Source of the DNA: Clostridiales bacterium
GTDB taxonomy: Bacteria > Bacillota > Clostridia > Christensenellales > Aristaeellaceae
Length of the DNA: 43,833 nucleotides
Direction: 5' to 3'
NCBI GenBank assembly: GCA_015056055.1
Contig: SVHC01000024.1
Coordinates: forward strand, 1-43,833
Below the pieces are notes generated by a model. The model made no database searches. It saw nothing but the letters and a program-made list of their open reading frames with translations, and was not told where the DNA came from. The translations under genes and the position numbers were made by a program. This document shows positions 25,129 to 38,860 of this stretch, one piece after another (positions within the stretch are counted from its first letter, which is position 1; each line of letters begins with the position of its first letter).

Positions 25129-28100
25129 CTAGAAGTTATACCAGTTAAACCATCTCAAAAGCTGTGCATAGGCGCGTGCCACCGGCATGCCGGATTCCAG
25201 CGGATAGAACATCACAAACAGGACTGCAGCGACACATACCAGCATGATGCCTGCGCGGCGTGCGATACGTGCATTGAGCTTCATAAAACGATTCAGTACA
25301 AGCACGATTGCCATAATTATGAAAGGCACGCTGGTGAAATAGTGATAGATAAATGTGCAGCGGGAGATCAGTACCCAAGGCATGTATTGCGATGCAAAGC
25401 CGATTGCTACGGTAAGCATATCTTTATCCGTGTGTTTTTCGGCAGCAAGAAGGAATACAACCGTGACCATGGCAACGATTCCGGACCACCAGACTGCGGG
25501 ATTTCCCATGCAGGAGATGGAGGATATTACGCCGGCAGGCATGAACGACGTACCGGAATAGTACCACATCGGGCGGACAATCAGCGGCCATTCGTACCAG
25601 GGAGACTGGAAACCGTGAGTCGCTTCAAGGTCGGCATGATAGCGGAACATATTTTCTTGAATCTGCAGAACGCCCTTTACGGAAAGACCACCCTGAGGGA
25701 GCATGTGCCAGTAATATGAAAAATAGTATACGACAGCGGGCACGGCAATGAAGAACACCAGACAGCATGCCAGTGTGATAACCGTATTGTGCCAGAAGCA
25801 CTTGGACTGTATGCTTTCACGGTTGGCGAGGTATTCCTTTGAACGCTGCCAGATTGTGATGAAGAAAAGCAGTGCAAGACCGATGGAAGCGTAGATACCG
25901 GTCCACTTGCTTGCCCATGCAAAAGCCATGAACAGGCCGGAGAGACCAAGCGGAATCAACGTTCTCCAGAGTTTTTCACGCAGGTAACTCATCTGCATGT
26001 AGCGGATCATAAAGATATACATCATCATGATGAAGAACACTACATAGCTGTCAATGGTTGCAATGCGCGTTTGCGTGAAATGCATGGAATCCAACGCCAT
26101 CAGCAGCATGGCGATGAGCGAAAGATCCGCACGCTTTGTAAGCTGACGGACAAGCATATACATTGCGGGCAGCATCAGAACGCCCATCAGAGCACCCATA
26201 AAGCGCCAACCAAACGGATTCATACCAAAGATGCGTATTCCGACCATGATCAGCACCTTGCCGAGCGGAGGATGCGTATATTCGTAGGCGGTGAGTCCCC
26301 GGTCGTGTTCATATGCGGTGCGGGCGTGATAGATTTCATCGAAATAGGTACCGTTATAGTAAGAGGGATAGGGAGGAACGGTATCCTGTTCATCGATCAG
26401 CAAAGTATAATCCGTTTCGAATTCCGGCGCGGAACCGCTGCGGGAGATGGAGGCGATCGTGATCGGATTGCTGTTTTCGTCAAGGAACGAAACCTCGTGC
26501 AGCGTAAGGCCGACACGCTGTGCGCGCAGGCGTATATAGCGTGCAGTTTGCATGGGATAACCGCTTTGCAGAGCCGTGAATTGCCCGGAGGAATCGTATT
26601 CGCCCGGCTGATACCACAGCCATCGGAAACATTCGCCCTGATTGTACAGTGCGCTATGCGGTTCTGACCAGGTTTCGCCGTCGGAGGAAAGCTCTACCGT
26701 AAAACTGGAATAGCATATACCACCGTAATACGTCATATGGAAGGTTTGTTCTTCTCCAAGATCAAACACGACACTTTCTCCGGGTTTTGATGCAATCCAG
26801 GCAGTTTCGGGAGCTTTAAGGGATCCGAGATTTGTGAATGCAAGCGCGGAATAGGTGAGCGTTACGACTGCCATCGCCAGATATTCGCCGCGCTTCAGAT
26901 TCAATTTATAATCCGGAGCAGCATCAATTTTTACTTCGTGCAAAGGCGAAGTTTCAAAGGTGATTATGCGCTCGCGTACAATAATATCGTAGCTGACACG
27001 CGCAAGTGCAGCTGCACTGAGCACATTTACAACAGCTGCGGTGCAGGTGTAGAAACGATCACTGCCGCCGATGATGCGGGAAACCTCATGCAGACCGTCC
27101 TGCAGAATCAACGTGATATTGATAAACTGGCCAGCGGTAAATACGGCGAGGATATACAGAATGCGCTTGTCTTTGCAGATCGCAAATGCAAACAGAAGCA
27201 ACAGGATTGCCGGGAAGGCATAGCGCTCGTGCATCATGGGTCCGAAAGCAAATAAAAGTGAAATAAAGCATGCGGCAGCAAGATACAGATGGTGCGATTT
27301 CTTGGAACGGATTGCGAGGAAGAATGCGTATAGATACGACAGTGCCATGCAAACGGATGCAACAATTGTAACGGTTTCTGCACTGGAAACAGGAGTCCAG
27401 TTCAGCGAGAACAGCTCATATACGTTCATTGCATTGATGGTGACATATTTATAGCCGGAAACAGTGCCTGAATACAGGTTCCAGAGCCAGGTAATTGGAT
27501 TGGTGCCGCCGGAGAAGAATGCGGCGATCAGGACGAGAACCGCAAATGCAGCTCCGATACCGATACCGCAAGTTTTCAGAAGATTTTTGCGGTCGGATTT
27601 TTCGGCGCGCATGATCAGAATAACAATTGCACAAAGACCTATCGGGGCAAAAAGCAGAGATTGCGGCTTTGTAAGCACTGCCAGGGCGTATATGGGCAAT
27701 GCGGCAGAAAAGCGTTTTTCCACCAACAGTGTCACTGCAACTACAAGCATCAGAGTAAATACGCTGTCAACCTGGCCCCATGCGGCGCTGTCGATTACTG
27801 CGACAGGATTAAATGCATAGAGCATTGCGAGCATCAATGCAATGCGTTCGCCTGCGTGCTTGCGTGCGAAGCGGAAAAGAACAACTGCACCGCCAAGGTC
27901 GCAGAGCACGGGAATTGCTTTTACAAGCAGCCAGTGAGCTGCTGAATCGTATCCGATGCCAAAGAGGCTGCGAAGGGCCTCAGCAGGCCACAGAAGCAGC
28001 ATATATACCGGAGGATAGTCGCAGAAATAATCGGCACTGTAGAAATCAAAAACACCCGTATGGAAAATTCGGTAAGACCACGCTTCAAAGCAGTTAATAT

Positions 28101-28905
28101 CCCAGTAAAAGCCGCGGAGGCTTACGGCAATAATGCAGCGAACGACAAGTGCGCATATAAGTGCAATCCACAGGAAAGATCGGGCAGAAGATGCAGTCAG
28201 TTCCGGACGCTGCCATTTCATCTGCTTATAAACGGCGAACATGGCACAAAGTACAAGAGAAGTGAGGAGAAGAATAAGCTCGTTCTGTGTTTCGTAGTTT
28301 GCAGAGTTTTCTTCCTCTTCGTTATTGGTGGAACCGGACGGCGCAATGGTGGCAAAACTTTGAACGGAAATATCTGCAGGGGCGGAATCCAGTTTTACCA
28401 TGGAAACATCGTCAAACCAGACACGGCCGGAATTTTCTGCACCATAAAATCCCAGACGCAAAAGTACGTTTACTTCTGTCTGGTCAGTGCCGGTAAGTCC
28501 GCAAAGGGTAAGGTTCATCCATTCACCGTCGGATTCACGGATGGTGTTTGAATGAGTAAATGTGTTGTCAATGGAAATATTTGCACCTTCACCGTTAAGG
28601 CTGGCGTCGTCAACCTTAACGCGGCAGGTAATTTGATAATAGGAGTTGGGGTCTACTGCAACAGTCTGGCAGAACCGCGCATCGTTACGATCAAGGTTAT
28701 AGATTTCAGCCGTTTCACCGTCACAGGAAAAATGGGTAACGCCTGAGTCGGTGAAATAGGCGTATGTAGACCATTCGGCAGGAAGACCGTTTTCGGTTAC
28801 CTGCGAAAAATCTCCGTTTGAAATGAGATTTCGGTTATTATCGGCAAATGCAGTAGGCAGGAAAAAAAGCAGTGTCAGAAAAAACAGCAAGAATTTATTT
28901 CGCAT
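25129..28905 (-). CDS. Giant GT-C membrane glycosyltransferase with two transferase modules
   Basis: A 1258-residue membrane protein. A signal peptide (1-21) is followed by a carbohydrate-binding-type beta domain (about 22-195), a membrane helix, and a first polytopic GT-C module (about 240-650) with the loop-1 acidic motif YWDINCFEAW. A discoidin-like beta domain (about 710-830, ending in HEVSFLDE) leads into a second polytopic module of the GT39/PMT protein O-mannosyltransferase family, with YFDEIYHARTAYEH and THPPLGK (about 855-890). GT-C enzymes transfer sugars from a lipid-phosphate carrier on the outer face of the membrane, so protein or cell-wall glycosylation is expected. Donor and target are unknown. 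The ATG follows AGAGG, 21 bp after yraN. Two GT-C modules in one chain is unusual. Confidence 0.85.
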   Translation of the reverse strand: MRNKFLLFFLTLLFFLPTAFADNNRNLISNGDFSQVTENGLPAEWSTYAYFTDSGVTHFSCDGETAEIYNLDRNDARFCQTVAVDPNSYYQITCRVKVDDASLNGEGANISIDNTFTHSNTIRESDGEWMNLTLCGLTGTDQTEVNVLLRLGFYGAENSGRVWFDDVSMVKLDSAPADISVQSFATIAPSGSTNNEEEENSANYETQNELILLLTSLVLCAMFAVYKQMKWQRPELTASSARSFLWIALICALVVRCIIAVSLRGFYWDINCFEAWSYRIFHTGVFDFYSADYFCDYPPVYMLLLWPAEALRSLFGIGYDSAAHWLLVKAIPVLCDLGGAVVLFRFARKHAGERIALMLAMLYAFNPVAVIDSAAWGQVDSVFTLMLVVAVTLLVEKRFSAALPIYALAVLTKPQSLLFAPIGLCAIVILIMRAEKSDRKNLLKTCGIGIGAAFAVLVLIAAFFSGGTNPITWLWNLYSGTVSGYKYVTINAMNVYELFSLNWTPVSSAETVTIVASVCMALSYLYAFFLAIRSKKSHHLYLAAACFISLLFAFGPMMHERYAFPAILLLLFAFAICKDKRILYILAVFTAGQFINITLILQDGLHEVSRIIGGSDRFYTCTAAVVNVLSAAALARVSYDIIVRERIITFETSPLHEVKIDAAPDYKLNLKRGEYLAMAVVTLTYSALAFTNLGSLKAPETAWIASKPGESVVFDLGEEQTFHMTYYGGICYSSFTVELSSDGETWSEPHSALYNQGECFRWLWYQPGEYDSSGQFTALQSGYPMQTARYIRLRAQRVGLTLHEVSFLDENSNPITIASISRSGSAPEFETDYTLLIDEQDTVPPYPSYYNGTYFDEIYHARTAYEHDRGLTAYEYTHPPLGKVLIMVGIRIFGMNPFGWRFMGALMGVLMLPAMYMLVRQLTKRADLSLIAMLLMALDSMHFTQTRIATIDSYVVFFIMMMYIFMIRYMQMSYLREKLWRTLIPLGLSGLFMAFAWASKWTGIYASIGLALLFFITIWQRSKEYLANRESIQSKCFWHNTVITLACCLVFFIAVPAVVYYFSYYWHMLPQGGLSVKGVLQIQENMFRYHADLEATHGFQSPWYEWPLIVRPMWYYSGTSFMPAGVISSISCMGNPAVWWSGIVAMVTVVFLLAAEKHTDKDMLTVAIGFASQYMPWVLISRCTFIYHYFTSVPFIIMAIVLVLNRFMKLNARIARRAGIMLVCVAAVLFVMFYPLESGMPVARAYAQLLRWFNWYNF

Positions 28906-32288: not shown

Positions 32289-32315
32289 TTAGCACTCGTC
32301 AATGACGAGTGCTAG
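32289..32315. promoter_or_regulatory. CIRCE element (HrcA operator) of htpG
   Basis: TTAGCACTC, nine bases, then GAGTGCTAG: the CIRCE consensus with one mismatch at the last base. The 9-base spacer GTCAATGAC is itself palindromic, so the element forms an 11-bp stem with a 3-nt loop. On the minus strand it is followed by ATTTTT. HrcA represses from such sites in the absence of stress. Confidence 0.92.
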
Positions 32316-32341: not shown

Positions 32342-34615
32342 TTAGAGCGGCGGCAGCGGGAGCACCTCGTTCATGAGGGCGAGGCTGCGCGGATAAGAAG
32401 CGAGGATATCCGGAAGGGCAACGAGCGCCTCCAGAGATGCAGATGCAAGAATTGCGGGAATGGCACGCTGAGAAAGTGCGCGGTCCAAAGCCGTCTGAGC
32501 ATCCCAATCAACATAGGGCAGAATGCGTGCAAGATAATCCCACATTCCATTAAGAGCACGCTGAGAGATATATACGCCGACTTTTGCAAGCGCAGTACGC
32601 AGTGCAAGCAAGCGCTCTTCGATTTCGGCGGGAATATCCGCTGTCGGAGCAAAGAGAAGCTGCAATGCGGAAAGAGAAACTGCCTCTTCTTTAACCGGCG
32701 CACTCTTGCGGCAGGCGGGTTTCGCACTCAGAGGCGTATGCTCAAGGCGCAGAGTAAAGGCACGGTCGAATACGCGCGCTTCTACAGGGAGTCCGCCATC
32801 CTGCAGAGTTGCAAATACGGAAAGAGAAGGATGCAGAGCGCTTGTTTCCATTACCGGATCGAACGCCTGGGAAGCTTTGGTATTTGCATCATCCAAGAGC
32901 AGCATGCGCGGTGTGAGCATATCCGCTTTATCGTTCAGGCGATGATAATCTCTGTTTTCATCCCAGTTGGAAGCAGGAGCATGGATGGCAAGGAAGCGAT
33001 CCTTCAATCCAAGAGACTGTGCCAGAAGTTCAACAATTGCAGTTTTACCGCAGCCTATGGGTCCGGTTACAAGGCAAAGGGAACCGGTGGAGAGAATTGC
33101 CAGCAGGTTTACGGCTTCATCGTTGTCGAGTATGTAGCCGGTTTCTGCAAAGTGAGCTCGCAGATCGCTGATCAGCTGACCGGCAGAGGGAGAGGCTACT
33201 TTTACCTGAGCGCCTTTGTTGTCGCTGCATTTGGCCAGAATATTCCTTTGGGACTGCTGATATGCTTCTTCCAAGGAAGCAAGTTCGCGATTACGGGAAG
33301 CACGCAATTCGTCCAATGCTTCTTCACGAAGCTTCTGCCGATTCTTCTTAAGCGCATCGATTTCCATGGCAATTTTCATGCGTGCGGCTTCGATATCCGT
33401 CATGCTGTCAGCAGTGCCGGCAGAACGGGGAACTATGTCGGTTGCGCTGAGGACCATGGAATCAAGAGCATCAAGCTTCACCAGTTCCTTCACGATAGTT
33501 TCGCGTATATCGGCACGCTGCCATGCGCAGCGCATGCTGCGAATAGCGGCATCGGCCGGATTTTCCACGGGAACTGCAGAAACGTTTGTGGGAATAGGAT
33601 GCCCCAAGTTTTCATAACGGATTTTACGCCACTGATCATCTACGATTTCCTTCAGGCTGAGGCCTCTTGTGGGATTCAAGCCTGTCTGACGACCGCCTTG
33701 CCGAATGGAAACGGTGCGGGGCAGGGAAGGATCGCGCGAAATCCACGGCGCGGGCTGTTTCGCTTCCGGTGCGGGAGCAGGAGCTGCAGCCGGTACAACG
33801 GGAGGCGCTGCAACGGGTTCAACAACAGGTGCAGGTGCGGGTGTTTCTGCTGCGGGAGTGTCAATGCTTTCAACCGGAGCAACAGGTGCAGGAATCTCGG
33901 CTGTCGGTGCTTGAACCTGAACGGGCTGAACTGCAGCAGGTTCTTCTGCGGGCTGAGCTTCAGCAGGCTCGATTACTGCGCCCGGATAAAATCCTTTTTC
34001 ATTTTCGGGAACGAAAATACGGGTGGATTCGCCGCTTACAAAATGGATTTCGGTGATACGCTGCTCTGCTTCTTTCATAGGGAAGGAAGTGCAGTTGTCA
34101 ATTTTAGTAAGAATGCAGGAAGCATCATCATTCTGAACAGACCACGGACCGGTAAGCATTCCGTCATTGAGAATGTACGCGCATGCCGTAAAGACAGAAT
34201 TGGCAGCAAGTGAAATGGTGGCTGCATCTGCATCAAAGGAAGTTTCAACAATTTCTGCAATTTGATTTTCGGGAAGCTGGCAGATTACATCGGAATAGAC
34301 AATGTAAGCGTTATTTTCGGAACGTTCGGGGGAATAGTTTTTGTTCGGTCGGATTTTATCATTCGGACCCAGATGTTTGCGCAGATCCAAAAGACAGTAT
34401 CTTCCGAGCTGGCGCATGCGGATTTTAAAATGATTGCTTTCATTTTTATCCGGTACTATGCGAATGAAGCCGTCGAGCGGATACTGCTCCTTTGTGTTTT
34501 CAAACGGAACATATTTCCCCTCATTGTGCAAAAACAGAGGACAGAACCGGAAATACGCTTTTAATGGATTGTCCTCTTCCAGATAGCCCAGAGCAAAATT
34601 TCCTGGTAGAGCCAT
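32342..34615 (-). CDS. Unassigned multidomain AAA-type ATPase
   Basis: A 757-residue protein of unknown function. Residues 1-210 form a domain I cannot place, with a basic, motif-like core (IRIVPDKNES at 51-60, HLGPNDKIRPNKNYS at 81-95). Residues about 215-290 are a Pro/Ala/Val/Glu-rich linker. Residues about 405-455 are a charged coiled coil (MKIAMEIDALKKNRQKLREE). The C-terminal third is a P-loop ATPase: Walker A GPIGCGKT (518-525), a segment with Trp551 like the MoxR/McrB substrate loop, and Walker B MLLLDDA (571-577), then a helical lid. The ATG at 34615 follows AGGAGGG and a consensus promoter. There is no nuclease, VWA or toxin gene beside it, so a McrBC or MoxR-VWA system is not shown. 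Confidence 0.85.
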   Translation of the reverse strand: MALPGNFALGYLEEDNPLKAYFRFCPLFLHNEGKYVPFENTKEQYPLDGFIRIVPDKNESNHFKIRMRQLGRYCLLDLRKHLGPNDKIRPNKNYSPERSENNAYIVYSDVICQLPENQIAEIVETSFDADAATISLAANSVFTACAYILNDGMLTGPWSVQNDDASCILTKIDNCTSFPMKEAEQRITEIHFVSGESTRIFVPENEKGFYPGAVIEPAEAQPAEEPAAVQPVQVQAPTAEIPAPVAPVESIDTPAAETPAPAPVVEPVAAPPVVPAAAPAPAPEAKQPAPWISRDPSLPRTVSIRQGGRQTGLNPTRGLSLKEIVDDQWRKIRYENLGHPIPTNVSAVPVENPADAAIRSMRCAWQRADIRETIVKELVKLDALDSMVLSATDIVPRSAGTADSMTDIEAARMKIAMEIDALKKNRQKLREEALDELRASRNRELASLEEAYQQSQRNILAKCSDNKGAQVKVASPSAGQLISDLRAHFAETGYILDNDEAVNLLAILSTGSLCLVTGPIGCGKTAIVELLAQSLGLKDRFLAIHAPASNWDENRDYHRLNDKADMLTPRMLLLDDANTKASQAFDPVMETSALHPSLSVFATLQDGGLPVEARVFDRAFTLRLEHTPLSAKPACRKSAPVKEEAVSLSALQLLFAPTADIPAEIEERLLALRTALAKVGVYISQRALNGMWDYLARILPYVDWDAQTALDRALSQRAIPAILASASLEALVALPDILASYPRSLALMNEVLPLPPL

Positions 34616-34663: not shown

Positions 34664-34692
34664 ATTATATACGAATACGGGGAAAATGTCAA
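34664..34692 (-). promoter_or_regulatory. Consensus promoter of the AAA-type ATPase gene
   Basis: On the minus strand, TTGACA (34687-34692), a 17-bp spacer and TATAAT (34664-34669): both hexamers are perfect. It lies about 50 bp before the ATG at 34615. Confidence 0.85.
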
Positions 34693-34841: not shown

Positions 34842-37800
34842 ATGCCGGTTAAATACATCACTGGAAGAGCTGACTGCATGCTGCCGGAAGTGCTGAAGTG
34901 TGCACGTCGTGCGTTGGAGAGCGATACGGAGCTGATTGTGGTTGTGCCGCGACAGCTGACATTGGAAACGGAAATTGCGATGTTTGATGCGCTGGGCATA
35001 GAGGGTTCCTTCCGCTTACAGATTTGCTCTACGGCGAAACTGATTACACGCATATTTGAAGCGGCAGGTTCTCCGGAGGGCGCAAGAATTGACGATCAGG
35101 GCAGAGCAATGGCTTTGTACCGGGCCGCAAAAAAACGCAGCGATGATCTCGTCTGGTATAAGGATGCGCATCATCGCAGAGGCTTTGCGGAACGTGCGCT
35201 TGCTCAGATGCAGTTATTCAGGCAGGCGGGGCTGGATGCAGAGGCACTTTCCGCATGTGCGGAGGATATGCCTGCAGGTGCTGCGCGGCACAAACTGCGT
35301 GACCTTGCAGTTCTTGCGGAGGAGTATGAACAGATCATTTCCGGAAGGTATCAGGATGGAGAAGGTGAACTTCTGGAAGCAATAAGCAGAATTCCATCAG
35401 CGGCTTTTTTGTGCGGGTGTTCGGTGTGTTTCTATGGATTTGACATGATGCCGCCGCTTTTGCATGAAATGATTGCTGCGCTGGCAGGTGTTTGCTGCGA
35501 GGTAAATGTACTTCTTCCTGTAGAAATGGACGCTTCTGCAAGAGATGCGGATGTATTCCTGCCGATGAAGAAATCACTTATGCGGCTGGATGAGAAAGTG
35601 AAAGCGCGCGGTGTGCAGCGGCAATTTTGTGCGGTAAAAAGCGATTTGACAAGAAAGCAGCATCCGGAAATTGCGCATCTTGCAAGAGAACTTTTCAGCA
35701 GGACGCCTGTGGAGGCCAAAGGCAACCCTAAAGTGGTGCGGCTTGCCGTAATGCGCGACCCTTACGAGGAAGCCATGCTTGCTGCAAGCCTGTGCCGGGA
35801 ACTTGCGCGGACAAAAGGATGGCGCTATCGCGAAATGCTGATTGTCAGTCCGGATGTGGAATCGCGCAGAATTGCGTTGGAAAGGGCATTTTCGCTGTAT
35901 GGCGTACCGCTGTATTTTGCCGATTCACGGGGAGCAAACAAACATCCTCTCGGCAGAACGCTGATAGGCGTTATGAAAATGATTTCCGGGCGATACAAGG
36001 TGGAAGACGTTACATGCCTTGCGCGTGCCGGCTATATGAATATATCGCAGGATGAAGCGGACAGATTTATTAACTATGCCTTGGCAAACGGACTTCGCGG
36101 CAACAAATTCAAAAAGGAAATTCCGGATGAAACACTTGAGACGATCCGGTGTGCATTTTTTGCGCCTGTGGAAGAACTGGAAGCTTCTTTAAAGAAAGCA
36201 AAAAATCTGACGGGGCAGCTTGAAGCGATATTTGAATTTCTCTGCGCGATAGAAGCCTATGAAAAATGCGAGCAGGAACAGATGCGCCTGATTGAAGCAG
36301 GTGACAGAACACGTGCGGGAGAAAGTGCGCAGGTGTGGAACAGGATTGTATCCGCGCTTGATCAGATGCATGCATTGATGGATGAAAAGAAAGCACCTTT
36401 GAAAGAAATCGCGGAATTGCTTGAACAGTCGCTTTCTGCGGTGGAATTGAAGGGTCTTCCACAGTCGGCGGATGCCGTGAGCGTGGAGTCGCTTTCCAGA
36501 ACCTATACAACGCCTGTAAAAGCTCTGATGATGATTGGTATGTCAGACGGCGCGGGAATGGCTTCGGGAGGATTGTTCACAGATGCGGAGCAGTCCCGGA
36601 TTTGCGAAAAGACGCAGGTGTGGCTTGGACCTGACGGCGTGGAGCTTGCACGTATAGCACGTATGTATATTCTGAGTGCGCTGAGTGCAGCAACGGGCGC
36701 GGTGTACATAACATATCCCATGAGCGGTGCGGATGATTCGGCTTTGCGTCCTGGTTTGATTATAGGGGCTCTTAAGCGCGTATTTCCGGATATACCGGAG
36801 ATTGATACCGTGCCGGAAAGAATGCTTTCCGCTGCTCCGGATGCAGCGGTTTACCGCATGGCAGCAGGCGAGGGTATTGAGGCATCGGCGGCGTTAAACA
36901 GGGTTTCAGACGGGCAGGCAGCGGTTGACAGATTTATGAAATATCTCAGCTGGAATGCTGTCAGCGACAAATTGGGAGAAAAACTTGCTGAGAAAATTTT
37001 TGGAGAATTGAAGCGCGTAAGCGCATCGCGACTGGAACAGTATGCGCAGTGTCCGTTCCGGCATTTTGTGACCTATGGGCTTTCGCCGCAGATTATCGAA
37101 CCCTATGAGCTTAAGCCGGTGGATGAAGGCGGATTTTTTCATGAAGCGGTAAGGGCATTTCTTTCAGCCGAAAAATCCGGGATTCAGGAGCTTCCTGCGG
37201 AGGAGGCATCTGTGCGCATGGAAGGAATCGCCGACAGACTTCTTGACGGCATGATGAATGGGCCTTTGGGTGACAGTGCTGTCAGCCGCGCCGAGCGCAG
37301 GCGTCTGCGGGATACGGCTTGCAGGGCTGCCTGGATGATGGCAGAGCAGCTTAAGGGCAGCAGCTTTACTCCGGTTGAACTTGAAATCAATTTTGGGGAC
37401 GAAGAACCGTGTGTGCGCTTGCATCCCAAGGGAGGAGAGAGTACTCTCGCCGGACGCATTGACCGCATTGACGAATGGCCGGAGCGAGGGTATCTGCGCG
37501 TGATTGACTATAAACGCGGCGGACGTGCAATGAAGCTCAATGAGGTGTATTCCGGTCTGCAGCTGCAGCTTATTATCTATCTTGCGGCGGCTATGAAAAG
37601 GCGCGGTGGAAAATGTGCAGGCGTGTATTATTTTTCAGTGGCAGATCCCATATTCGAATGTGAAAGCCGCGAACTTTCGGCTGCAGATGATATGCGGCGC
37701 GATAAACTGCGCCTGAGCGGTATATTCCCGAATGATCCGGAAATTCTGTATGCTATGTCACCGGAACCGGAAAGAGTTATGAAAGTACGCATGACAAAGG

Positions 37801-38018
37801 AGGGTGGCTTTTATAAAGGAACGCCGGTTGCGGATGCTGAGGAGTTTGACAAGCTGATTCAAACGACTATTGGATACTGCGAAAAGTATGTCAGCGAAAT
37901 CCGGGAAGGAAATACAGAAATAGCGCCGGTTCGACAGAAAAACCGAAGCGCATGTGATTTCTGCGAATATCGGGCCATATGTGCGACCGATGGCTCGAAA
38001 GATCGCATTTTCGACTGA
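34842..38018 (+). CDS. addB: ATP-dependent helicase/deoxyribonuclease subunit B (AddB)
   Basis: A 1058-residue AddB-type protein, the partner of AddA in the double-strand break end-resection complex of Firmicutes. The N-terminal half is an inactive helicase-like domain. The C-terminal half has the RecB-family nuclease: FFHEAVRAFL, AGRIDRIDEW and VIDYKRG with Asp889 and Lys891. The iron-sulfur cluster cysteines are Cys737 (CPFRHF) and Cys1038, Cys1041 and Cys1047 (CDFCEYRAIC). The Walker A site present in Bacillus AddB (GRSGSGKT) reads GRADCMLPE here and has lost its lysine. addA, normally the next gene, is absent; sigG follows after 68 bp. The ATG follows GAGGGAGGAAGG. Confidence 0.9.
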   Translation: MPVKYITGRADCMLPEVLKCARRALESDTELIVVVPRQLTLETEIAMFDALGIEGSFRLQICSTAKLITRIFEAAGSPEGARIDDQGRAMALYRAAKKRSDDLVWYKDAHHRRGFAERALAQMQLFRQAGLDAEALSACAEDMPAGAARHKLRDLAVLAEEYEQIISGRYQDGEGELLEAISRIPSAAFLCGCSVCFYGFDMMPPLLHEMIAALAGVCCEVNVLLPVEMDASARDADVFLPMKKSLMRLDEKVKARGVQRQFCAVKSDLTRKQHPEIAHLARELFSRTPVEAKGNPKVVRLAVMRDPYEEAMLAASLCRELARTKGWRYREMLIVSPDVESRRIALERAFSLYGVPLYFADSRGANKHPLGRTLIGVMKMISGRYKVEDVTCLARAGYMNISQDEADRFINYALANGLRGNKFKKEIPDETLETIRCAFFAPVEELEASLKKAKNLTGQLEAIFEFLCAIEAYEKCEQEQMRLIEAGDRTRAGESAQVWNRIVSALDQMHALMDEKKAPLKEIAELLEQSLSAVELKGLPQSADAVSVESLSRTYTTPVKALMMIGMSDGAGMASGGLFTDAEQSRICEKTQVWLGPDGVELARIARMYILSALSAATGAVYITYPMSGADDSALRPGLIIGALKRVFPDIPEIDTVPERMLSAAPDAAVYRMAAGEGIEASAALNRVSDGQAAVDRFMKYLSWNAVSDKLGEKLAEKIFGELKRVSASRLEQYAQCPFRHFVTYGLSPQIIEPYELKPVDEGGFFHEAVRAFLSAEKSGIQELPAEEASVRMEGIADRLLDGMMNGPLGDSAVSRAERRRLRDTACRAAWMMAEQLKGSSFTPVELEINFGDEEPCVRLHPKGGESTLAGRIDRIDEWPERGYLRVIDYKRGGRAMKLNEVYSGLQLQLIIYLAAAMKRRGGKCAGVYYFSVADPIFECESRELSAADDMRRDKLRLSGIFPNDPEILYAMSPEPERVMKVRMTKEGGFYKGTPVADAEEFDKLIQTTIGYCEKYVSEIREGNTEIAPVRQKNRSACDFCEYRAICATDGSKDRIFD

Positions 38019-38036
38019 TAAGCAGATTTCCTTTTT

Positions 38037-38066
38037 GCATACGAGCCTTTTTTAGCGGCAATACTC
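38037..38066 (+). promoter_or_regulatory. Possible forespore-type (SigF/SigG) promoter of sigG
   Basis: GCATA (38037-38041), 18 bp, then AATACTC (38060-38066) partly match the SigF/SigG pattern (-35 GHATR, -10 CATNHTA). The -10 differs at two positions. It lies about 20 bp before the start codon. Confidence 0.3.
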
Positions 38067-38086
38067 ATCTCGTTGGAGGTGAGTAT

Positions 38087-38860
38087 ATGGCGATCAATAA
38101 GGTCGAAATCTGCGGCGTGGATACGTCAAAGCTTCCGGTGCTCACAAACGAGCGTATGCGCGAATTGTTTCCCCAAATCCGCACGGGAGATGCCGGCGCA
38201 CGCCACGAATTTATACAGGGGAACCTTCGGCTGGTGCTGAGCGTGATTCAGCGCTTTCACAACCGTGGTGAAAGTGTAGACGATTTGTTTCAGGTAGGCT
38301 GTATCGGTCTGATTAAAGCGATTGACAATTTTAATACCGAGCTTGGCGTGCGTTTTTCAACCTACGCTGTGCCCATGATTATCGGAGAAATACGCAGGTA
38401 TCTGCGCGATAACAATCCCATCCGGGTAAGCAGATCCATGCGCGATCTTGCATACCGTGCTCTGCGTGCAAGGGATGCATTGGTGTACAGGCTTGGCAGG
38501 GAACCGGGAATCCGCGAGATTGCGCAGGAGATGGGGACGAGCGAAGAAGAGGTCTCTGTAGCTCTGGAAGCGATTCAGGATCCTGTATCCCTGTTTGATC
38601 CCGTATATCAGGATGGCGGCGACGCAATTTATGTGATGGATCAGGTAAAGGATACTCGCGTGGATGAAAACGACTGGGTTCGGGACCTATCCATCGCTCA
38701 GGCACTTTCGAAGCTGGGAGAACGTGAGCGAAGCATTATTAAAAGCCGCTTTTTTGATGGGAGAACCCAAATGGAGGTGGCTGGGGAAATTGGAATATCA
38801 CAGGCACAGGTTTCGCGCCTTGAAAAAGCTGCGCTTACCAAAATGCGCAGATATATTTGA
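38087..38860 (+). CDS. sigG: RNA polymerase sporulation sigma factor SigG
   Basis: A 257-residue sigma-70-family factor that directs late forespore transcription during sporulation. Identity is clear from NKVEICGVDTSKLPVL at the N-terminus, which is the anti-sigma-recognition start of SigG. Region 2 (NLRLVLSVIQRF, DLFQVGCIGLIKAIDNF, VRFSTYAVPMIIGEIRRYLR) follows, and region 4 ends with GISQAQVSRLEKAAL. The ATG follows GGAGGTGAG, 68 bp after addB. In Bacillus and Clostridium sigG lies after spoIIGA-sigE; that cluster is not here. The gene marks the host as a spore former or a descendant of one. Confidence 0.97.
   Translation: MAINKVEICGVDTSKLPVLTNERMRELFPQIRTGDAGARHEFIQGNLRLVLSVIQRFHNRGESVDDLFQVGCIGLIKAIDNFNTELGVRFSTYAVPMIIGEIRRYLRDNNPIRVSRSMRDLAYRALRARDALVYRLGREPGIREIAQEMGTSEEEVSVALEAIQDPVSLFDPVYQDGGDAIYVMDQVKDTRVDENDWVRDLSIAQALSKLGERERSIIKSRFFDGRTQMEVAGEIGISQAQVSRLEKAALTKMRRYI

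Follow-up and report, generated by a model that had tools for sequence, protein, structure and literature searches.

A protein family of one group of gut Clostridia with a conserved, unplaced N-terminal domain on an eroding MoxR-derived AAA+ module

This work concerns one gene in a stretch of 43,833 nucleotides from a Clostridiales bacterium (contig SVHC01000024.1 of assembly GCA_015056055.1), here called the window. The gene is read on the minus strand in a frame that is open throughout, from an ATG at 34615 to a stop at 32342, and its product of 757 amino acids joins an N-terminal domain, here divided into N1 (residues 1-117) and N2 (residues 118-205), to a linker, a long helix and an AAA+ module of MoxR type. 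The new result is evolutionary: N1 is conserved, while the MoxR-derived module erodes and is often found without its ATPase motifs. The family is lineage-bound, its strongly conserved N-terminal domain is placed in no known family, and no description of the family or of its architecture was found among the titles and abstracts listed in searches of the PubMed Central literature.

Results

Loss of ATPase motifs

The locus analyses rest on 80 relatives, kept from 165 that were found by a pattern scan of a genome collection, which its tool describes as covering 84,980 species. Seven loci cut by contig ends were left out, and the remaining 73 together with the window make 74 full-length proteins. 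Alignment A3 (73 rows) is also without L080, the N-domain of which is identical to that of L079, and in it L063 begins at the ATG in register with the starts of the other members; alignment A4 (71 rows) is also without L095 and L104, which carry long inserts and are absent too from the profile of intact ATPases.

Walker A is canonical in 42 of the 74 proteins and non-canonical in 32. Of these 32, 23 belong to one branch (L108-L130), here called degenerate, which lacks Walker B and the DR box (Arg-finger box) as well. The other nine lie among intact relatives; they are of the types GSAFAPKG, GPAASDKN and GPVGSGKR, to which is added L051, the sister of the window's own protein, with GPCGSGKG at the Walker A position and Walker B kept. 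In a tree of the N-domain, to be read with caution because of its long branches (L126, L127, L101 and others), well-supported branches force at least five changes of Walker A state (shuffled mean 24), and the changes are read as losses because regain is implausible. The degenerate module can still be recognised, aligning with the intact profile over 244 columns, but a match to MoxR is no longer obtained (probability 0.2). In three genomes of one genus the protein is shortened to 432-464 amino acids, with the N-domain and a degenerate C-terminal part, and the long helix is seemingly absent (by-eye reading of the sequences).

Constraint on the N-terminal domain

When the parts of the protein are compared separately, N1 is its most constrained element. 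The median identity of N1 is 0.59 for intact pairs, 0.67 for degenerate pairs and 0.47 between the two groups, and the corresponding values for the AAA+ core are 0.37, 0.27 and 0.19; N2 is sequence-variable, with a median of 0.19 among intact pairs. In 13 close pairs the ratio of nonsynonymous to synonymous substitution rates (dN/dS) is 0.03-0.11 for N1, 0.00-0.45 for N2, 0.16-0.51 for the AAA+ core and 0.13-0.57 for the lid. The protein as a whole evolves fast: its identity to a same-genus relative is 51%, compared with 63% for addB, 79% for htpG and 89% for a sigma factor.

Since N1 is the most constrained part while Walker A has been lost repeatedly, the N-terminal domain looks like the working part of the protein, and ATP hydrolysis looks dispensable. 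This turns round an earlier, sequence-only reading of the same DNA, where the N-terminal domain was suggested to act as a tethered sensor or binding module; on the present view it is no accessory sensor carried by a motor.

Domain layout and searches with the N-terminal domain

The layout that had been read from the sequence is borne out by AlphaFold2, composition and motifs (Table 1). With the 73-row alignment, AlphaFold2 predicts residues 1-205 to be an ordered, confident, beta-rich fold with a mean predicted local distance difference test score (pLDDT) of 92.8. With the 71-row alignment, residues 321-757 are modelled as short helices, a helix of 69 residues (401-469), and an AAA+ core with lid that starts at about residue 476 (mean pLDDT 89.5). 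The proposed coiled coil is thus present as a modelled helix, and that this helix forms a coiled coil is probable from the model. The proposed linker stands, with proline and alanine making up 56% of residues 214-290.

That the N-terminal domain could not be placed from its sequence holds also after searches of Pfam, NCBIfam, PHROGs, PADLOC, PDB sequences, PDB folds and viral folds. In Pfam there is no match for window residues 1-124, and the N-terminal part of 20 members gives one weak match each to Arm_PDR and Glyco_transf_88. Residues 1-210 have no match better than E 0.077 in PHROGs and none in PADLOC, NCBIfam offers nothing close to any cut-off, and the best hit of the N-terminal part in a PDB sequence profile search has an E value of only 0.13. 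A Foldseek search with the model, of the kind that the sequence-only reading had suggested, finds nothing in PDB or BFVD at E <= 0.001, a result that does not exclude families missing from the VIA-align tables. N1 has weak SSB/OB matches, and SSB-type OB-fold proteins are among the known systems nearest to the protein.

Type of the AAA+ module

The module had been described as a P-loop ATPase like MoxR or McrB. Of the two, MoxR is the closer over core and lid. When profiles of six sequences each are compared, MoxR is favoured: the profile of intact ATPases aligns with MoxR over 206-207 columns, covering core and lid, and with McrB-type sequences over about 107. With single sequences only, the comparison is indecisive, and a single RavA sequence aligns over just 55 columns (probability 46). 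VIA-align ranks MoxR structures first over core and lid. Pfam AAA_3 has no match in the window's tables or among the families listed for 71 members (25 of 47), and AAA_5 matches seven of the 71. The NxxD motif, given in a passage of PMC11090510 as the McrB signature, is not present in the window protein, which has FATLQD (601-606) in its place.

Distribution

As far as searched, the gene is chromosomal, single-copy and confined to one family of gut Clostridia, which we label Christensenellales-like from the names of the records. In a set of 61 genomes, 37 of them from the window's taxonomic family, relatives occur in 26, all among these 37, and for this reason the observation is not an artefact. 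Matches from the same taxonomic family, and from it only, were obtained in three wider sets: 23 of 396 genomes drawn from the order, 2 of 391 from the class and 1 of 398 from the phylum. The order-level set lists 34 genomes of the family, 11 without a match, and one of these 11 carries a fragment at a contig edge according to the search of the 61 genomes. The gene was not found in three closed or near-closed genomes of one genus, and one weak partial match (E 0.012) came from a set of 13 genomes in which the N-domain had no match, most of them from genera that seem to lack the gene.

The 80 kept relatives, many from guts and rumens, are labelled Clostridia, Clostridiales, Eubacteriales, Firmicutes, Christensenella(ceae) or with the name of a Candidatus genus, for example Pullichristensenella; NCBI places two of the Candidatus genera in Clostridia incertae sedis. 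The window's own genome (95% complete) has one match, and searches of 50,697 phage records and 72,556 plasmid records gave none.

Gene start, promoter and neighbours

An open reading frame lister starts the gene upstream, at 35053 (903 amino acids); the alignment of the relatives begins at the ATG at 34615. The perfect promoter that had been proposed is present (Table 1). Within 120 nucleotides upstream, matches of 11-12 of 12 positions precede 30 of the 70 relatives that have a clear gap before the gene, and the same holds for 49 of 248 other genes. Such promoters are thus somewhat enriched before the gene but ordinary in the genomes examined, and the control with the 248 other genes rules out promoter rarity as a special feature.

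Table 1. Layout of the gene and its product (window coordinates)
Feature	Position	Strand	Basis
Whole gene, 757 amino acids, ATG at 34615	32342..34615	-	open frame and relatives
Sigma-A-type promoter TTGACA-N17-TATAAT	34664..34692	-	12/12 consensus match
N1, residues 1-117, OB-like subdomain, most conserved part	34265..34615	-	alignments, model, weak SSB/OB matches, dN/dS
N2, residues 118-205, beta-rich subdomain, sequence-variable	34001..34264	-	
Pro/Ala-rich linker, residues 206-300	33716..34000	-	composition
Residues 301-400, short helices, moderately conserved	33416..33715	-	model from residue 321 on; identities
Long helix (likely coiled coil), residues 401-469	33209..33415	-	helix 81-149 of modelled C part
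AAA+ core, residues 470-640	32696..33208	-	Pfam AAA 23 bits (cut-off 21.2); MoxR structures
Walker A GPIGCGKT, residues 518-525	33041..33064	-	motif
Walker B LLLDDAN, residues 572-578	32882..32902	-	motif
Putative Arg-finger box VFDRAF	32756..32773	-	role by alignment to MoxR
Helical lid, residues 641-757, sensor-2-like ISQRAL at 683-688	32345..32695	-	model; alignment to MoxR SPRG segment

In the window the gene is flanked by a divergent addB upstream and by htpG, an NlpA lipoprotein and a UPF0102 protein downstream. That it stands alone is true in the sense that no gene cluster accompanies it throughout 20 neighbourhoods or 80 loci, but htpG follows on the same strand after only 119 nucleotides. 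The neighbourhood comparison suggested with the sequence-only reading reveals no conserved partner across the 80 loci. The absence of a VWA protein and of McrC, noted in that reading, is also found: at E <= 0.001 neither VWA_2 (PF13519) nor McrBC (McrC) has a match in the window's genome, and in 20 genomes carrying the protein neither lies on its contig. VWA_2 has 25 matches in 12 of the 20 and McrC (PF10117) three in three, all on contigs other than that of the protein. The contigs are often short, the VWA search covered PF13519 only, and the McrC model may miss some McrC, its control being positive in only one of 14 genomes.

Immediate neighbours at the 80 loci include a SpoU methyltransferase (19), a Gfo/Idh/MocA oxidoreductase (18, adjoining intact and non-intact members), an LCP-type protein (10), aspartate kinase (7) and a small protein of no known kind (4). 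Each occurs in part of the family only, and all five were rejected as conserved partner. For SpoU and for Gfo/Idh/MocA one representative each was confirmed with Pfam; the LCP protein, aspartate kinase and the phage genes below are named from by-eye readings of the sequences.

In the degenerate branch a SpoU-type methyltransferase is next on the same strand at 19 of 23 loci, with a 4-nucleotide overlap at 11 of the 19, and the same adjacency is read by eye at six of 13 further matching loci, including those of the three shortened proteins. It occurs at none of 41 intact loci, of which 36 have a called downstream gene, and all 16 genomes tested, whether or not they carry the target protein, have a homologue of the methyltransferase. 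For these two reasons the link to the methyltransferase is suggestive for one branch only.

Several further observations concern the surroundings of the gene. Between the gene and htpG lies an operator of the type controlling inverted repeat of chaperone expression (CIRCE) at 32289-32315, with one mismatch to TTAGCACTC-N9-GAGTGCTAA (0.02 expected by chance). From its place directly upstream of htpG and of htpG's 11/12 promoter (32281-32253), it follows that htpG is probably controlled by HrcA; the CIRCE hairpin was predicted to be a terminator as well, on the target gene's strand. At the four loci with the small protein (L052, L054, L056, L060), which is conserved, it directly precedes the target gene, and in three of them a same-strand YceD-like gene (by-eye reading) is found upstream, either immediately ahead of the small protein or one gene further. 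SpoIIP-like proteins, likewise read by eye, occur near the gene on both sides in L043 (6096-7259 and 10412-11317) and in L045 (121-1269). The window also encodes, at 25132-28905, a protein of 1258 amino acids, the last 380 residues of which match protein-O-mannosyltransferase (PMT) families, while the front 870 have no match at E <= 1e-4 in the same table of matches.

Defence and phage context

PADLOC matches only two of the 10 window neighbours: addB, by its Cas4-type nuclease part, and a sigma-70-type factor at 37979-38857, where the MzaA model covers residues 74-292 (E 1.1e-21), presumably via a sigma-like part of that model. Both are read as shared domains. From the PADLOC results for protein and neighbours, the McrC search, the phage and plasmid records, the single copy and the one-family spread, a defence system was set aside.

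Three IMG/VR contigs carry the gene. In the two examined (L151 and L153) phage-type genes are followed by the target gene in the order seen at cellular loci, and they are taken for host flanks beside a prophage rather than for a viral origin. At these and seven further loci of one subclade the gene adjoins an opposite-strand phage structural module (terminase, portal, capsid) and an XRE-type regulator, an arrangement that several genomes share at one location; the module is read as an old prophage or as a domesticated, gene-transfer-agent-like module.

Discussion

Tentatively, and with somewhat less than even confidence, we propose a one-family protein in which the N-terminal OB-like domain is the working part, with a likely nucleic acid ligand, on an oligomeric MoxR-derived AAA+ scaffold that can do without hydrolysis in its core function. 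N1, together with the beta-rich N2, would bind the ligand, most likely nucleic acid with RNA favoured, a probable link to RNA or ribosomes being part of the proposal, and linker, long helix and AAA+ module would form the oligomeric scaffold. The nucleotide-binding motifs of the window's protein are intact as judged from their letters, so ring assembly there may be driven or regulated by ATP. From at least five Walker A losses it would follow that hydrolysis is not needed for the core function.

Somewhat less probable is a MoxR-type remodelling ATPase in which a built-in substrate-binding domain (N1-N2) takes the role of a VWA partner, with hydrolysis as the main activity and with changed or relaxed function in the inactive relatives. 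Such an enzyme would account for the MoxR structures as best VIA-align matches, for an intact Walker A in 42 of the larger branch's 51 proteins, the window's among them, and for the result that in 20 genomes no VWA gene lies on the contig carrying the protein. It fits poorly with at least five changes of Walker A state, and with N1 being the most constrained part also in proteins without canonical Walker A.

Unlikely, though suggested by the invariant polar residues of mixed charge in N1 (E14, D15, R52, D56, N58, K64, R66, N91, K92, N102, Y107, S108) and by the absence of a confident fold match, is that N1 is a new enzyme or protein-interaction domain that does not bind nucleic acid and is held in an oligomer by the helix and the AAA+ module. 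More doubtful still is a specific form of the nucleic-acid proposal: N1 would be a new RNA- or ribosome-binding domain of this one family, on a MoxR-derived ring that is turning from a machine driven by ATP into a scaffold without a motor. In one branch the ring would have become translationally coupled to the SpoU-type 2'-O-methyltransferase and would guide or assist rRNA modification. Very improbable is an anti-phage system of McrB or CoCoNuT kind with N1 as recognition module: a P-loop NTPase with long helix and OB-like domain is reminiscent of CoCoNuTs as portrayed in part of PMC11090510, one subclade has the gene beside phage structural genes, and PADLOC matches the whole protein over helix and P-loop, within residues 406-547 only (best E 1.5e-5, to a candidate model), but in 20 genomes McrC is absent from the protein's contig, the window protein has no NxxD, its N-terminal 210 residues have no PADLOC match, the phage and plasmid records give no match, the gene is single-copy in one taxonomic family, the part supposed to do the recognising shows high conservation and no diversification, and the ATPase has repeatedly changed.

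With this protein comes a domain that is modelled with confidence, finds no place in any of the libraries used and shows strong conservation within one family of gut Clostridia. Its relatives also form a natural series from intact to motif-less proteins: the catalytic motifs of a MoxR-like AAA+ module disappear although the host protein remains under selection, and this series makes a scaffold-only role of such modules testable. For annotation, the default names MoxR or ATPase are unsuitable for these proteins.

Among known systems, the proteasomal ATPases Mpa and ARC have a coiled coil immediately before the ATPase part. The weak sequence matches of the window protein to 3m9b and 7px9 (E 0.19-0.36) concern the helix only, and its AAA+ part resembles MoxR. 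With McrB GTPases and CoCoNuTs the window protein shares a P-loop NTPase and extra N-terminal parts, and coiled coils and OB folds occur in CoCoNuTs according to a section of PMC11090510. It differs from them in having neither NxxD nor, in the 20 genomes, McrC on the same contig, and in a profile alignment of 107 columns. The MoxR-type AAA+ proteins RavA, NorQ, CbbQ and CHU_0153 (PDB 2r44, which we take to be a MoxR) share AAA+ core and lid with it, at 19% identity to MoxR in the aligned part, and the N-terminal domain, linker and long helix are additions to that plan. Sections of PMC7159879 and PMC9976466 give the helix-2 insert as a feature of the MoxR clade; the AlphaFold2 model has no strands between beta-2 and the helix preceding Walker B. 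From Walker A to Walker B there are 46 residues in the window protein and 51 in the genome's own MoxR, and both observations fit a short insert as well as an absent one. From Walker B to the DR box there are 36 and 52, respectively, and across the family this distance is 35-43 residues in 38 of the 42 intact proteins and 52-54 in the other four.
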